From the NCBI GenBank assembly GCA_013297775.1, contig JAAFIL010000006.1:1-64000 (forward strand): a DNA stretch of 64,000 nucleotides. The letters are read 5' to 3'. Of this stretch, positions 10,520 to 61,088 are shown piece after piece. Position 1 is the stretch's first letter, and the number at the start of each line of letters is the position of its first letter. This stretch comes from Bacteroidota bacterium (lineage in GTDB: Bacteria; Bacteroidota; Bacteroidia; B-17B0; Aurantibacillaceae). The notes beneath the pieces are model-generated. The model was given only the letters and a program-made list of their open reading frames with translations. It had not been told where the DNA came from and searched no databases. The position numbers were made by a program, and so were the translations under genes.

Positions 10520-13045
10520 ATGAAAAAAATCTATAAATTGTTTGCAGTCCTATCGTTATCGGCACTAGGGTTTAGCGAAAGTAAAGCGCAAAGTTGTATT
10601 TTTACTACCCAGTATCCTAGTACATCAACGATTGCTATTAATGGTGTCCCTGGTTTCACCACAAATGTAACAACATGTAATTTTGGTGGAGAATATAGTG
10701 TTAATAATTTCACAACAGCTGGTACTTATAGTGCCACCAGTTCGGTAGGTACCGATTTTTTAACGGTTACCAATAATGCGAACGTTGTAATTATAGCGGG
10801 TCTTTCACCGTTGTCATTTACAATTCCATCCGTTGGTTTGTATCGCATTCATGTGGCTACATCATCTACATGTGGTACGCAATCTTCTTGCCGAAACATC
10901 AATGTGATAAAACCACCTACACCTTGTACGGTAGTGCCTTCGGCAACAGCAACAGCCAACAGTATCTTACCTTGTCCTGGTACTACTTTAAGTTTAAACT
11001 CTAATGCTATTTATGTAGGATCTGGTTTCACCTACCAATGGCATTCGTCAACGGTGAGTATAGCTGGTCCGTTTACATCGGTTGGTGGTGCAACAAATAC
11101 TGCCTTCAGTACTACTGTATTACCTGTTACCAATACATGGTACCAATTGGTAGCCACTTGTGCTAATGGCCCTCTTACTGGTACTTCTGCGCCTATTCAA
11201 GTTGGAGCAGCTGTTACAACTACCAATACTGTGCCTTATTTTGAAGGCTTCGAAACATTAACTGCCGGAAATTTACCGAATTGCTCTTGGTCAAGAACAG
11301 GCGATTGGACTACTGCTACAACCACATTAAACTTCAACCGCGCACCCAAGTCGGGCGTAGGTTATGCGTACACATTTTGGTCAACCATTGCTGGTGGCGA
11401 TATGTTATATTCAAATGGTATTCAATTGAACGCTGGTGTTACCTATTCTGGTGCGGTATCTTACAACACAGATGGTACTTCGGGTTTTACTGAATTGAGT
11501 ATGTTAGTTGGTCCTAATCAAAGCACCCTTGCCGCAGTGAGTATTGCTTCGGTTGCAGCCATCACCAATTCGGTTTATGCTACCATCACCAATACGTTTA
11601 ATGTACCTACTTCTGGTATTTACTTTTTAGGTTTTAGAGCAGTTGCTCCTACATCAAATCCTTGGTATTTAATGGTTGATGATATTTCTGTAACCGCACC
11701 TTGTTCATTAAATGCACCCGTATTAAGTGTAAGTGGAAACAGTGCTATCTGTAGCGGTTCTTCTACTAGTTTAACTGCGTCAGGAGCCTCTAGTTACGTT
11801 TGGAGTTCTGGTCCTAGTACGCCAAGTATTTCGGTAAGCCCTTCAGTTACTACCACTTATACAGTTACAGGAACTAACGCTTTATCGTGTACCAACACCG
11901 CAGTTCAAGTGGTGAGTGTTACACCTTTACCGACTATAATTATTTCGGGGACTAACTCTATTTGTGCGGGTTCATCTACTACTTTAACAGCTGGTGGTGC
12001 AACTTCTTACAGTTGGTCTAATGGTCCAGCTACTGCAACTAATGCGGTATCTCCTGTGGCTACTACTTCTTATACTGTGATGGGCACAACGAATGGCTGT
12101 ACAGGTATGGCTATGCAAACTGTTTCGGTGAATGCCATTCCTACAGTAAGCATTGCTGGCACTGCTGCAATTTGTGCGGGTTCATCTACTACTTTAACAG
12201 CAAGTGGTGCAACGTCTTACAGTTGGTCTAATGGTCCAGCTACAGCAGCTAACGCGGTATCTCCTGCGGCTACTACTTCTTATACAGTAATGGGTACATC
12301 AAATGGTTGTACAGGTATGGCTATGCAAACCGTTTCGGTAAATGCCGCTCCTTCGTTAAGTATCGCTGGTACTGCTGCAATTTGTGCGGGTTCATCTACT
12401 ACTTTAACAGCTAGCGGTGCAACGTCTTACAGTTGGTCTAATGGTCCAGCTACAGCAGCTAACGCGGTATCTCCTGCGGCTACTACTTCTTATACAGTAA
12501 TGGGCACAGCAAATGGTTGTACAGGTATGGCTATGCAAACTGTTTCGGTAAATGCTTTACCAAGTGTTAGTTTAACGGCTAGTTCTACAACTGTATGTAT
12601 TAATACATCAACTATTACATTGGCAGGTACTCCTGCGGGTGGTACTTATACTGGAACTAACGTTGCAGGTAATGTGTTTACCCCAGGTGCAATAGCGGGT
12701 ACTTTTAACCCAACGTATGCTTTTACAAATACAGTAACAGGTTGTTCAAATACCGCTACAGCGAGTATTATTGTATCGGGTTGTGTTGGTTTAGCTGCTA
12801 ACGCTGTTAATGCAACAGAGTTCACCGCTTATCCAAATCCAACCAATGGTGTATTTACTTTAACGTTTGCTAATGGTTTAGAAAAAACAGTTACTGTTAC
12901 CGATGTAACAGGTAAAGTTGTGTTTACAACTGTTTCTAAACAAACACAATTAGAAATTAATTTGAATGAATTAACGAATGGTATCTATACTGTAAAAGTA
13001 CAAGGTAACCAAAGTGTTAATGTTTTGAAAGTAGTTAAAAACTAA
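10520..13045 (+). CDS. Secreted Ig-like repeat protein with type A T9SS sorting domain
   Basis: 841 residues starting with a signal peptide (MKKIYKLFAVLSLSALGFSESKAQ). The middle part contains a region resembling secreted beta-sandwich/PKD-type modules (about 240-395), then four tandem units of about 70 residues (about 410-690) built on the pattern ICAGSSTTLTASGATSYSWS...TYTVMGT. A further Ser/Thr/Gly-rich stretch leads to the C-terminal sorting domain (about 765-841) with YPNPTNGVFTL and the LNELTNGIYTVKV segment typical of T9SS type A domains. It is therefore expected to be exported by Sec, then T9SS, and anchored or released at the surface, probably as an adhesin or matrix protein. Last three repeats are almost identical at DNA level. 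Followed by a strong terminator. Confidence 0.9.
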   Translation: MKKIYKLFAVLSLSALGFSESKAQSCIFTTQYPSTSTIAINGVPGFTTNVTTCNFGGEYSVNNFTTAGTYSATSSVGTDFLTVTNNANVVIIAGLSPLSFTIPSVGLYRIHVATSSTCGTQSSCRNINVIKPPTPCTVVPSATATANSILPCPGTTLSLNSNAIYVGSGFTYQWHSSTVSIAGPFTSVGGATNTAFSTTVLPVTNTWYQLVATCANGPLTGTSAPIQVGAAVTTTNTVPYFEGFETLTAGNLPNCSWSRTGDWTTATTTLNFNRAPKSGVGYAYTFWSTIAGGDMLYSNGIQLNAGVTYSGAVSYNTDGTSGFTELSMLVGPNQSTLAAVSIASVAAITNSVYATITNTFNVPTSGIYFLGFRAVAPTSNPWYLMVDDISVTAPCSLNAPVLSVSGNSAICSGSSTSLTASGASSYVWSSGPSTPSISVSPSVTTTYTVTGTNALSCTNTAVQVVSVTPLPTIIISGTNSICAGSSTTLTAGGATSYSWSNGPATATNAVSPVATTSYTVMGTTNGCTGMAMQTVSVNAIPTVSIAGTAAICAGSSTTLTASGATSYSWSNGPATAANAVSPAATTSYTVMGTSNGCTGMAMQTVSVNAAPSLSIAGTAAICAGSSTTLTASGATSYSWSNGPATAANAVSPAATTSYTVMGTANGCTGMAMQTVSVNALPSVSLTASSTTVCINTSTITLAGTPAGGTYTGTNVAGNVFTPGAIAGTFNPTYAFTNTVTGCSNTATASIIVSGCVGLAANAVNATEFTAYPNPTNGVFTLTFANGLEKTVTVTDVTGKVVFTTVSKQTQLEINLNELTNGIYTVKVQGNQSVNVLKVVKN
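11748..12590 (+). repeat. Four tandem 210-213 bp coding repeats inside the secreted protein gene
   Basis: Units begin at 11748, 11961, 12171 and 12381. Unit 1 is divergent. Units 2-4 share long identical blocks such as tttgtgcgggttcatctact. By hand count units 3 and 4 differ at about five positions over their first 170 bases, including silent sites, which points to recent duplication or gene conversion. Confidence 0.92.
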
Positions 13046-13302: not shown

Positions 13303-15156
13303 TTATTTTTTAAAATTGGAATTAAATAATTGCATTAGTCCAGTTAAAATTCCAGTGGCTTTATTTACAGTATCTTTGTTTTCGATTGGAATTTTAAAGT
13401 AGGATTGCCCTGTTTTTTTATCGGTTTCTACAATACTATTCACTAATGCTTTTGTTTTTTCAGAGTCGGATAAGGTGTCGCTTAATTTTTCGAGAAAACT
13501 TAAGCCTGTATTTAGTAAATTTTTTACGTCTTGGTCTATTAATGACGAATTCTTTTCTTCTTCTAAGTTTGCTAAAGTTTCTGTTTCAGTAAATGCAAAC
13601 GAGTCTGTACCTTCGCTAGGCTTGGGTTCTGTAAACATAGGGTCAAGTGCTGGGTCAGCAAACTCTTCTGGTTGATCAACCGTTTCGGGCGTTTTTTCAA
13701 CGGTTAGATCTTCAACCGTTTTCATAAATTGTTTCATTTTACTTTCGGTCATAAATACAGCGTCTTCTCCTCCATCTAATACCCCTTCAAACATTTTCTT
13801 TTTAAAGTTCAGTAGTTCGAGCATTCGTTCTTCAATGGTGCCTTTCGAAATAAGATTGATAATTGTAACGGGTTTTTCTTGACCAAGACGATGAATGCGT
13901 GCTATTCTTTGTTCGAGTACCACAGGATTCCAGGGGCAATCCATGTTAATAAGTACCGAGGCACTTTGCAAATTTAAACCTACACCGCCGGCATCGGTCG
14001 AAAGAAATACTTTACAGTGTGGATCATTTTTAAAATTGGTTAATAAATCTTTTCTTTGAATAGCTGGAATACCACCGTGCAGATATTCGTATTTTACACC
14101 CATTTTATCAAGTTCCATCGAAACAAGTCGGGTCATGCGCTCCCATTGGCTAAAAATAACCACTTTATCGTCTTCGTTTTGAAAGACTTCTTCGAGGAGA
14201 TTTTTTAACTCTGTAATTTTAGTATCGTGGCGGGTTTGCTGATCAATAATGTAAGTGCTATCGCTTACCATGCGCATTTGATTTAATCCAATCATTAACA
14301 ACTGCCTTTCTTTTTCACTTAAAAAGCCAAAACGTTTCCATTTATTAACTAGTTTACAAACGCTTTCGTAATACTCGCTGTGGCGGTCTAATTGCTCTTG
14401 CGTAACATTAACCATTAGTGTTTTTGTAATACGTGGTGGCAATTGTTTTAAAACTTCATTTTTGGTTCGGCGAATACAAATGGAGGCAATGGATTCTCCT
14501 ATTTTATTCAAATTTTTATAGCCTGTTACTTTACCAGTTTCATCTGTAATTTGATGATCGAATAAGAATCGTGCTAACAGCCCCATTTTATAGCGGTCAA
14601 CAAACTCAACTAAAGAGTGTAATTCATCTAATTTATTTTCGAGTGGTGTTCCTGTTAAAACCAAGCAATAGGGCGAGTGAAGTAACTTAATGCTTTGCGC
14701 CGTTTTTGTTTTCCAGTTTTTAATGCGTTGTGCTTCATCGAGTATGATAAGGTCGGGTTTCATTTTAGTAATAAATTCTGTATCTCGTATGGCTATTTGA
14801 TATGAAATTATTTTATAGAATGCGTTTGAGTTGTATTGATTTTGCCTTTGGTTGGCATTGCCTTCAATGACTTTAGAGGAACTTTCTGTAAACTTTTCTA
14901 ATTCAGTTTGCCACTGGTACTTAAGCGAAGTTGGGCAAATGATGAGAACGTTTTCGATGCCTAATAATTTTTTAAGTAGTTCGGCAATGGCAAGGGATTG
15001 TATAGTTTTCCCGAGGCCCATATCGTCGGCTATCATGTAGCGGCCTGCTTCTGCAGCTTTTAAAACGGCTTCTTTTTGATAAGGGTAAAGATTTGCTTTT
15101 ATGATTTTATTTAATGCGCTGCTGTGTATTCCATTCGGGAAATAGTCTTGCAACAT
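13303..15156 (-). CDS. SNF2-family helicase/ATPase part (RapA-like), in -1 frame to the SWIM ORF
   Basis: SWI2/SNF2 ATPase that translocates on double-stranded DNA and remodels DNA-protein complexes. Helicase motifs: LYPYQKEAV (Q-like, about 23-31), DDMGLGKT (44-51), DEAQ (140-143), LTGTPLEN, then the second RecA half with VFLSTDAGGVGLNL and the motif VI segment EQRIARIHRLGQ. The last 180 residues are an acidic then helical tail of unknown role. The apparent ATG at 15156 sits exactly on the A7 run at which the upstream SWIM ORF (15111-15770) would shift -1, and only about 22 residues precede the Q-like motif. I infer that both ORFs encode one protein of about 822 residues, or are a gene broken by an indel. 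Stand-alone translation from this ATG is the alternative. Confidence 0.9.
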   Translation of the reverse strand: MLQDYFPNGIHSSALNKIIKANLYPYQKEAVLKAAEAGRYMIADDMGLGKTIQSLAIAELLKKLLGIENVLIICPTSLKYQWQTELEKFTESSSKVIEGNANQRQNQYNSNAFYKIISYQIAIRDTEFITKMKPDLIILDEAQRIKNWKTKTAQSIKLLHSPYCLVLTGTPLENKLDELHSLVEFVDRYKMGLLARFLFDHQITDETGKVTGYKNLNKIGESIASICIRRTKNEVLKQLPPRITKTLMVNVTQEQLDRHSEYYESVCKLVNKWKRFGFLSEKERQLLMIGLNQMRMVSDSTYIIDQQTRHDTKITELKNLLEEVFQNEDDKVVIFSQWERMTRLVSMELDKMGVKYEYLHGGIPAIQRKDLLTNFKNDPHCKVFLSTDAGGVGLNLQSASVLINMDCPWNPVVLEQRIARIHRLGQEKPVTIINLISKGTIEERMLELLNFKKKMFEGVLDGGEDAVFMTESKMKQFMKTVEDLTVEKTPETVDQPEEFADPALDPMFTEPKPSEGTDSFAFTETETLANLEEEKNSSLIDQDVKNLLNTGLSFLEKLSDTLSDSEKTKALVNSIVETDKKTGQSYFKIPIENKDTVNKATGILTGLMQLFNSNFKK

Positions 15157-15770
15157 TTTTTTCTGTTTTGTTTTTCGCGCTCGTTTAATATGTACTCCAA
15201 AGCATCGGGATAACAGCGGAATTGCGGGTCGAGCCGCTTCACTTTATCAATAAATTTTTCAAAATTTTTAAGACCTTCCTCTTTTAGAATAAAATCTTTA
15301 TCAAAAAAGGTGTTGGCTAATTTTTTGATTTCGTTGGCGTTATAACGACCTACACGAAGTACAATTTTGCGTTCATTGCCATACTTTAAGGTTACAGATG
15401 AATAGTCTCTTTCAAGACCTTCATTTAGTATTTTTACAAGATTTTTTTTAGATTTTATAAAATTAAATACATGCTCAATGTGCTTACAAGTGCCTAGATT
15501 ATTGACTTTGAAGTCGGGACAGGAGCAAAAATTCAGCCCAGTTGTTTGGCTTCGAATGGCTACTTTATAAACTCTTTTAGTTAGTGGATTTCGTACTTCA
15601 AAATCTGAATATACTTTGTGGCTACCGATATTTTTAATACTAAATTTTTGTTCTGTCGAAAATTGTTGTCTTAAAATGGTTTGCCACTCTTCAAATGAAA
15701 TGGCTTCTGGTTTCTTGGTATTTGAAATTTTTGGTATTCTTTTTTTTGATGCCGTATTTTTTGTTTTCAT
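15111..15770 (-). CDS. SWIM zinc-finger N-terminal part of the SNF2 helicase (frame-shifted)
   Basis: 219-residue ORF whose residues 82-97 form a SWIM finger: C82, C84, C95 and H97 in the CxC...CxH pattern. SWIM domains are common at the N-terminus of bacterial SNF2 proteins and bind DNA or protein. Its natural-looking sequence continues to NEREKQNRKK at residue 205, after which the zero frame gives a short unrelated tail and stops at 15111. Shifting -1 on the A7 run at 15156-15162 joins it in frame to the SNF2 ORF (205 + 617 residues). A lysine-rich N-terminus precedes the finger. No partner genes of a known defence system are adjacent. Confidence 0.85.
   Translation of the reverse strand: MKTKNTASKKRIPKISNTKKPEAISFEEWQTILRQQFSTEQKFSIKNIGSHKVYSDFEVRNPLTKRVYKVAIRSQTTGLNFCSCPDFKVNNLGTCKHIEHVFNFIKSKKNLVKILNEGLERDYSSVTLKYGNERKIVLRVGRYNANEIKKLANTFFDKDFILKEEGLKNFEKFIDKVKRLDPQFRCYPDALEYILNEREKQNRKKCCKTISRMEYTAAH
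15156..15162 (-). other. A7 slippery heptamer (A AAA AAA) joining SWIM and SNF2 frames
   Basis: On the minus strand the zero frame reads AGA AAA AAA TGT. The heptamer A_AAA_AAA has the X_XXY_YYZ layout of -1 ribosomal frameshift sites, and a -1 slip gives AAA AAA ATG TTG CAA, entering the SNF2 frame directly. Downstream only a weak hairpin (TTCC/GGAA) is visible. A single-base sequencing or mutational indel in the homopolymer would look the same. Confidence 0.55.
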
Positions 15771-15995
15771 GGTTTTTAGACTGTTTCAAGCACGAAAGTA
15801 TTTGTTATTTATAAATTTAGAATATTTAATGCGTTAAACTTTATAATAATTTTGAACAATTAAACCGTATGAATAGTAACAACTTTTACTGTAATTTAAA
15901 ATAACTTTTTCAACGCTATTTACAAATCCACCTAGTATTAAACCCAAATTTTTAAGAAAGAGGGGTTTTGGAATAAAGGGGATAACACGATTAAA

Positions 15996-16140
15996 TAGCA
16001 CGCAAAGGCGCAGAGGGCGCAAAGGTGGAAATTAAATATTGCACTAAAGATAGCACGCAAAGGCGCAGAGTTCGTAAAGGGAGGAATATCGAGAAAATAG
16101 CACGCGAAGGCGCAGAGGACGCAAAGGCGGAAATTAAATT
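15996..16140 (+). repeat. cgcaaagg/cgcagagg array, three units
   Basis: Three imperfect units beginning tagcacgc at 15996, 16051 and 16098, each with cgcaaaggcgcagagg-type strings followed by ggaaattaaat-like or similar spacer. The same short unit recurs in four other gaps of this window (17.9, 41.2, 55.3, 61.2 kb). Confidence 0.85.
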
Positions 16141-16212
16141 TTGAAAAAGGATTTCAGAATAAATCATTGCCTTTATTAAATACTATGATTTAAGTTATAT
16201 GGAAATAGGTAA

Positions 16213-16419: not shown

Positions 16420-16660
16420 TACCCCCTCTTTGCGTGAGGGATTGAAGCGATAGCCTGCGAAGGGCTTTTGCGAACAGATGCGCGAGCGGCGGAGGCTGAG
16501 GCACGAAGACCCCGCACGCCGCAGCAACTGTGGCAAAAGACCAAGCAGCTAAAGCGTAAAGCCCGACCCCGACTTTAAGTGCCAGTGTAATCATTTAGTA
16601 CACCATTTACTAATGCGCCAACACAACCACTTGCCATAGATGAGGGGACACGCCTAACAC
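16420..16660 (-). repeat. Hairpin repeat family A, copy 1 (reverse orientation)
   Basis: GC-rich element shared with 54896-55163 and 60870-61088. In the orientation of the other copies it begins GGCGTGTCCCC, has a variable AT-rich part, then GGGTCGGGCTTTACGC, AGCTGCTTGGTCTTTTGCCAC, GCTGCGGCGTGCGGGGTCTT and ends near CTTCAATCCCTCACGC. CTTTTGCCACAG pairs with the CTGTTCGCAAAAG further in, and GCGGCG with CGCCGC, giving a long hairpin. Confidence 0.88.
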
Positions 16661-16787: not shown

Positions 16788-17852
16788 ATGCTCGTACATT
16801 TGAATTTAATGCAAAGCAATTTTCAATTAATTTCTGGGGCTACTTATCAGCAATTAGTGCGCAAGCGTGCCAATGAGCGTAAGTTGGGCGAAGATGCCGT
16901 GTGGTACGATACTTCTGAGGATTTAAGTTTACAACTCCAGCAAAGTAAGGCTTTGTTTGTTATTGTTGGCATTCCGGAGGATGTTGGCGTGCGTGCCAAT
17001 TTTGGTAGAGGTGGCGCGCATACGGCTTTTAAACCTGCTTTAGAAAGTTTTTTAAATCAACAGAGTAATGCGTTTTTAAATGGGTCGCATTGCCTAATTT
17101 TAGGGGAATTGGAGGTAAGCGATTTAATGCAATTGCCCGAGTCGGCTACTAAGGAAGCACAGCTTCAAATGCTTCGCCATAACGTAACAGAAATAGATAA
17201 GCGGGTTACAGCACTCATTCAAATTTGCGTTCAATACCAAAAAATACCGATTGTTATTGGGGGCGGGCACAACAATGCGTATGGCAACATAAAAGGGAGT
17301 AGTTTGGCTCTAAACCAAAAAATAAATGCGATTAATTGCGATCCACATGCTGATTTTAGACCCCTCGAAGGGCGGCACAGTGGCAATGGTTTTAGTTACG
17401 CCTATAACGAACAGTATCTTAATCGCTATGCTGTATTTGCTTTGCACGAGCAGTACAATACATCGCTGGCTTTAGATACCTTTCATAAAGATCCTAACCG
17501 ATTAAATTACCAAACCTATGAAAGTATTTTTGTAAGAGAAACGCAAACCTTCACGCGGGCCCTTCATAATTGCATCCATTTTGTAAAGCAAGAACCTTGT
17601 GGGGTAGAGTTGGATATGGATGCCATTACCAATGTGCCATCGAGCGCAAAAACCAGTAGTGGACTTTCGCCCATACAAGCGCGGCAATATGCGTATCAAT
17701 GCGGTGCGCAGTTAAATGCTGTTTATTTTCACATTGCTGAGGCGGCACCTATTTTATCGCATATTAAAGCCGATAATAAAACTGGGAAATTAATTGCTTA
17801 CTTAATTAGCGATTTTATAAAAGGTGTATTATCTCGAAGTTCAGGAGAGTAG
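16788..17852 (+). CDS. Arginase/formimidoylglutamase-family hydrolase
   Basis: Ureohydrolase-fold enzyme with a binuclear manganese site. All six expected ligands can be read: H161 in GGGHNN, D185, H187 and D189 in CDPHADFR, and D276 and D278 in ELDMD. The family includes arginase, agmatinase and formimidoylglutamase (HutG). The roughly 80-residue N-terminal lead before the IVGIPEDVG strand and the overall length (354) look most like the HutG-type Bacteroidota branch, but no other histidine-degradation gene is adjacent, so the substrate is inferred. A second in-frame ATG lies at 16809. Its last five codons and stop lie in the first unit of the downstream tandem repeat. Confidence 0.85.
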   Translation: MLVHLNLMQSNFQLISGATYQQLVRKRANERKLGEDAVWYDTSEDLSLQLQQSKALFVIVGIPEDVGVRANFGRGGAHTAFKPALESFLNQQSNAFLNGSHCLILGELEVSDLMQLPESATKEAQLQMLRHNVTEIDKRVTALIQICVQYQKIPIVIGGGHNNAYGNIKGSSLALNQKINAINCDPHADFRPLEGRHSGNGFSYAYNEQYLNRYAVFALHEQYNTSLALDTFHKDPNRLNYQTYESIFVRETQTFTRALHNCIHFVKQEPCGVELDMDAITNVPSSAKTSSGLSPIQARQYAYQCGAQLNAVYFHIAEAAPILSHIKADNKTGKLIAYLISDFIKGVLSRSSGE

Positions 17853-54895: not shown

Positions 54896-55163
54896 GCGCG
54901 TGCCCCCCTATAAAGTAAATTCATAGCTTAGTGTAATAGTTACACTATGTGTTTTTATCGGATAAGTTTACAATCAGGGGGTCGGGCTTTACGCTTTAGC
55001 TGCTCGGTCTTTTGCTACAACTGCTGCGGCGTGCGGGGTCTTCGTGCCTCAGTCTCCGCCGCTCGCGCAGTTGTTCGCAAAAGCCCTTCGCAGGCTGTCG
55101 CTTCAATCCCTCACGCAGGCTGTCGCTTTATTTGTATTGAGCGAGGTCGAAATAATCCCTCAC
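54896..55163 (+). repeat. Hairpin repeat family A, copy 2
   Basis: Begins GCGCGTGCCCCCCTATAAAG, has TAGTGTAAtagTTACACTA, then GGGGGTCGGGCTTTACGC, GCTGCGGCGTGCGGGGTCTT, ending with two partial copies of the AATCCCTCACG end (about 55096 and 55153). Same core as 16420-16660 (reversed) and 60870-61088. Confidence 0.88.
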
Positions 55164-60869: not shown

Positions 60870-61088
60870 GGCGTGCCCCCTATAAAGTTTATCGGTAGCT
60901 TAGTGTATTATTTACACTAAGGGTCTTCTCCAAATTAAGGTTCCACTTCGGGGTCGGGCTTTTCGCTTTAGCTGCTCGGTCTTTTGCCACAGTTGCTGCG
61001 GCGTGCAGGGTCTTCGTGCCTCAGCCGCAGCCGCTCGCGCATCTGTTGGCAAAAGCCCTTCGCAGGCTACCGCTTCAATCCCTCACGC
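60870..61088 (+). repeat. Hairpin repeat family A, copy 3
   Basis: Begins GGCGTGCCCCCTATAAAG, contains TTAGTGTATTATTTACACTAA, then GGGGTCGGGCTTTTCGC, AGCTGCTCGGTCTTTTGCCAC, GCTGCGGCGTGCAGGGTCTT and ends CTTCAATCCCTCACGC. Closest to copy 2 by eye. Confidence 0.9.

Follow-up and report, generated by a model that had tools for sequence, protein, structure and literature searches.

When two overlapping reading frames encode what is elsewhere a single protein, and the frame changes on a run of adenines, is the ribosome programmed to slip there, or has a gene been broken? This question is raised by a putative helicase locus of a Bacteroidota bacterium (Aurantibacillaceae; assembly GCA_013297775.1, contig JAAFIL010000006.1), of which positions 1 to 64,000, hereafter the window, were analysed. 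A sequence-only reading had proposed that an ORF with a SWIM finger and an SNF2 ORF are joined by programmed -1 frameshifting, and had named the loss of one base from a homopolymer, whether true or artefactual, as the alternative.

Two reading frames on the minus strand

The locus comprises the following features.

15111-15770, minus strand: upstream ORF with a SWIM-like motif and a linker, 219 aa (ORF list, motif, homology)
15157-15243, minus strand: open extension of the SNF2 frame upstream of its ATG, overlapping the SWIM ORF
15156-15162, minus strand: A7 run in zero-frame phase A_AAA_AAA, with a -1 change of the homologous frame
13303-15156, minus strand: downstream ORF with the SNF2 helicase core (PF00176, PF00271) and a C-terminal tail, 617 aa from its ATG

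The two ORFs overlap in different frames, as had been claimed, and because the SNF2 frame is open as far as 15243, its true overlap with the SWIM ORF amounts to about 130 nt. The zero-frame codons at the A7 run are AAC AGA AAA AAA TGT TGC, so that A_AAA_AAA is phased correctly for a -1 slip. Codon phase and homology both confirm that the switch falls on this heptamer. The predicted products likewise agree with the sequence-only reading: a -1 slip would yield a protein of 822 residues (205 + 617), whose first codon after the slip is ATG, and its absence the 219-residue SWIM product.

The domains of the SNF2 core are clear (PF00176, E 5.1e-43; PF00271, E 1.1e-26). For the upstream ORF, the SWIM assignment depends on a CxC...CxH motif, CSCPDFKVNNLGTCKH, because the Pfam model PF04434 stays below its cut-off of 19.6 bits both here (16.6 bits) and in an intact relative (L036, 14.5 bits). 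The CxC...CxH pattern lies upstream of Walker A in all of the 80 relatives described below. Among the PADLOC matches listed, none is a whole-protein match to the family models of the known defence helicases DpdE, ZorD and DrmD; the best-scoring stretches of P0002 fall within the helicase core and take up only part of longer models (for example, 434-885 of 908 for ZorD), and the SWIM ORF has no PADLOC match.

Homology across the junction

The nearest relative is a single frame of 839 codons on contig JAHEXY010000002.1 (genome G132, recorded as L036/L047), which is 64% identical over the SNF2 part. Its protein can be aligned to the window without a gap if the zero frame is followed as far as RKK and the -1 frame is taken from M; this identifies the two ORFs as halves of one ancestral gene and places the change of the homologous frame at the A run. 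Its own junction codons, GAA AAT AGA AGA AGA CAG AAA TTA GTG, contain no A run. The same course is followed by the homology of the relatives in general, which runs in the zero frame through ...REKQNRKK and then, beginning with M, in the -1 frame. Residues 1-205 of the SWIM-like ORF are homologous to relatives and its final 14 residues lie outside the homologous frame; along the SNF2-frame extension at 15157-15243, the homology of the relatives runs in the other frame. That the SWIM and SNF2 ORFs are two parts of one SWIM-SNF2 helicase gene, as the sequence-only reading held, is therefore borne out by homology.

The relatives were taken from an alignment query against genome_contigs, of which the best 80 of 393 (47-61% identical in the best segment) were examined. 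In all 80, the SWIM motif and Walker A stand in one uninterrupted open frame, which in one case (L052) runs off the start of the contig. A pattern for motif VI is matched in 79 of them, and the exception (L095) fails that pattern only. A frame break at the junction occurs in none of these best 80 of 393 relatives; no relative in the searches is closer than 64% identity. In Bacteroidota, and in some other phyla, there are single-frame SWIM-SNF2 helicases, for example those of JAHEXY010000002.1 and of Emticicia spp., that share the domain order of the present gene and 47-65% identity in the SNF2 part, the nearest one being gap-free across the junction, but all those examined (80/80) are read in one frame, whereas the gene of the window is read in two. 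At the level of sequence, these alignments show a one-frame ancestral arrangement and locate the break at the A run.

A search of the class (395 genomes including the window's own) returned ten other matches, and in nine of these a single frame of 839-922 codons encodes the helicase. A 528-codon frame in genome G394 (L045, 1381-2964) matches only residues 110-588 of the query and contains neither the SWIM motif nor Walker A; it is an incomplete copy, possibly a truncated one, and not the same break. No SWIM pattern was detected in L040, L042 and L043, although their helicase frames have 894-904 codons.

Scans of genome_contigs and viral_contigs with one protein gave no match, and the alignment query against the viral set gave 68 viral loci with best segments 21-42% identical. 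A 6-kb record filed as Bacteriophage sp. from human faeces (MT838858.1, L046) encodes a single-frame SWIM-SNF2 helicase of Bacteroidota type (48% identical, 809 codons); it is possibly bacterial DNA filed as phage. Matches of the helicase in plasmids are all below 60% identity, and the DNA of the window has no match in plasmids.

Sequence context of the A run

The sequence-only reading would have yielded to relatives that all carry one uninterrupted frame and no slippery run. The first part of this was found in 80 of 80 relatives. The second holds in 73 of the 80, in which the 20 alignment columns around the junction contain no A run of seven or more; seven relatives (L055, L074, L077, L105, L111, L121 and L123) have A7 or A8 near the site, all in frame. 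Runs of at least six A occur within these columns in 13 of the 80, again with intact frames. In two cases the run occupies the very column of the window's A7, namely L121 (CGA AAA AAA ATT, A8) and L123 (AGA AAA AAA TGG, A7). The linker is A-rich because of its Lys and Arg codons, and not because a slip is kept. Judged from these comparisons, the A run is a mutational weak spot that is not maintained as a slip site.

The heptamer is also commonplace in this genome. In-phase A_AAA_AAA occurs in 18 copies in the 39 called ORFs of the window (18,776 codons) and 91 times in the 82,467 codons of 181 long ORFs from a 341-kb sample that includes the window. In the same long ORFs, AAA-AAA accounts for 305 of 445 Lys-Lys dicodons, or 68.5% against 68.8% expected from the use of AAA, and the genome sample thus gives no sign of the avoidance of AAA-AAA that would be expected if it were strongly slippery. 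Since the phased heptamer is frequent and AAA-AAA is not avoided, the motif is unlikely to be very slippery in this organism.

Only a weak hairpin had been noted downstream of the run, and its weakness is confirmed: pseudoknots aside, no downstream RNA structure beyond that of shuffled sequences was detected in three stretches (z -0.47, +0.67 and +0.86). The stretch upstream of the A run folds no better than shuffles either (z -0.35).

A probable one-base loss in a homopolymer and its alternatives

We consider it very probable that an ancestral one-frame SWIM-SNF2 helicase has been broken in this assembly by the loss of one base in an A homopolymer within its Lys/Arg-rich linker. The cause would be a one-base contraction of the A run; the A8 state, as in L121 at that column, would read through. 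Since the relatives examined are read in one unbroken frame, the break has the look of an everyday loss of a base, or of a mistake in the assembly, and not of a programmed frameshift. The homopolymer deletion that had been offered as the alternative is the best-supported reading. Such a deletion could be present in the living genome, as a recent indel, a single-lesion pseudogene or a tolerated break, or exist in the assembly only. The break is seen in this genome alone. In the GeneTack survey of frameshifted genes, BLASTp-validated frame breaks without conservation in relatives (singletons) are put down to sequencing errors or recent indels, and for cases of this kind errors are expected in preference to genuine indels (PMC3711429). 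No further lesion is seen in the helicase; this fits a gene that still functions better than a long-standing pseudogene, and it fits an error or a recent break as well.

The genome itself was screened for comparable cases. In 341,234 bases, 220 overlapping ORF pairs were found, 61 of them with coding support on both sides, the helicase pair included. Four of the 60 other candidates were checked with Pfam, and no second homology-supported break was found among them, which speaks against an assembly that is poor throughout: two have a different domain in each ORF, and two have a Pfam match in the downstream ORF only, to asparagine-synthase domains in one pair and to histidine-kinase domains in the other. 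A/T runs of at least seven occur 303 times inside the 181 long open ORFs, a count biased by the choice of long ORFs. Homopolymer errors do not seem to be widespread here.

Programmed -1 frameshifting at A_AAA_AAA, producing the 822-residue SWIM-SNF2 protein beside the 219-residue SWIM product, draws its appeal from a correctly phased heptamer placed exactly at the frame change. The motif belongs to those of the frameshift clusters in the GeneTack survey, and an A7 cassette from magnesium chelatase gave 10% frameshifting in E. coli (PMC3711429). The magnesium-chelatase cluster resembles the present case in its heptamer, A_AAA_AAA, and in its known fused homologs, but it comprises 23 frameshift genes in six genera, whereas here one genome shows the break (PMC3711429). 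The closer likeness is to the singleton frameshift genes of the survey, which also have fused homologs and a break that is not conserved; the main text of the survey contains no SNF2, helicase or SWIM, so that the case is apparently absent from it (PMC3711429). Among the titles listed in literature searches, none deals with a frameshifted SWIM-SNF2 gene, which does not prove that none has been published. With the arrangement conserved in 0 of the 80 relatives examined, downstream folding no better than shuffles, and the same phased heptamer frequent in other genes with no avoidance of AAA-AAA, the programmed frameshift of the sequence-only reading finds no support, and we regard it as very unlikely. 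A lineage-specific version, in which contraction of the A run would recently have created a -1 recoding site, with free SWIM protein as the main product and fused helicase as a minor one whose share can be adjusted, seems to us just as improbable. Low-level slippage could nevertheless produce some fused protein here, and a small amount is plausible in view of the 10% that the unrelated magnesium-chelatase cassette reached in E. coli (PMC3711429).

Gene fission is unlikely, if somewhat less so. The SWIM and SNF2 proteins would then be made separately, the latter from the ATG at 15156, and act as two subunits; this ATG stands exactly where SNF2 homology begins, the helicase core behind it is complete, and it has an A at -3, which is described as a positive determinant of initiation in Bacteroidota (PMC6847099). 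Separate synthesis of the two domains is possible. Against fission, separate parts occur in none of the relatives examined. A start-context profile trained on 99 starts of this genome gives the ATG a score of -2.16, which every training start exceeds; of 4,242 internal ATGs, only 40.5% score lower. The profile has little power, however: the SWIM ORF's own start (-1.31) exceeds just 4% of the training starts. Phase variation, in which A7/A8 switching within the population would turn the fused helicase off and on, is suggested by run lengths that differ between lineages (A8 in L121, A7 in L123, both in frame). These lengths differ along with the flanking codons, A7 runs are very common in this genome, and A7 is short for a contingency tract; we find this explanation extremely hard to credit.

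Accessory distribution and genomic surroundings

Among 87 genomes from the same genus, family and order, the set for the order being identical, no other genome has a match to the helicase at E <= 1e-60 or 1e-70, and the best matches in the genus are 31-34% identical (G002, G019). The upstream neighbour of the helicase, encoded on the opposite strand (16788-17852), is present in 31 of 40 genus genomes, the window's own included. From the lack of a close ortholog in the 87 genomes of the order, set beside this neighbour, we infer either a gain of the helicase in this genome or its loss in others.

Several other features of the window were recorded. Between the start of the SWIM ORF and the intergenic element described next, positions 15988-16143 hold a direct repeat of about 50 nt in three imperfect copies, with AGCACGC(A/G)AAGGCGCAGAG in them. 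The GC-rich intergenic element at 16425-16580 is a dispersed repeat with at least 40 matches in its own genome among 128 candidates; among the matches listed, the best copies are 90-97% identical and include window positions 54978-55117 and 60948-61088 on the minus strand. Part of this element (16427-16572) has a sub-threshold Rfam match to the Flavo-1 RNA RF01705 (25.7 bits against 42, E 0.0067). On the plus strand, 10520-13045 encodes a protein of 841 aa, whose N-terminus is signal-like and which contains several internal repeats that are nearly identical (ICAGSSTTLTASGATSYSWSNGPATA...).

Consequences for the helicase and for the recognition of recoding

If the one-base loss is real, the gene would probably give the 219-aa SWIM product; the ATG within the run might add some of the 617-aa SNF2 product, and unprogrammed slippage would contribute little fused protein at best. 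For the recognition of recoding, the locus advises caution: where a genome is rich in A, finding A_AAA_AAA in phase at overlapping ORFs is only a weak pointer to recoding, and relatives are a better guide than the heptamer. Should the gene really be broken and slippage occur, it would provide a small example of an indel that is partly offset in translation.
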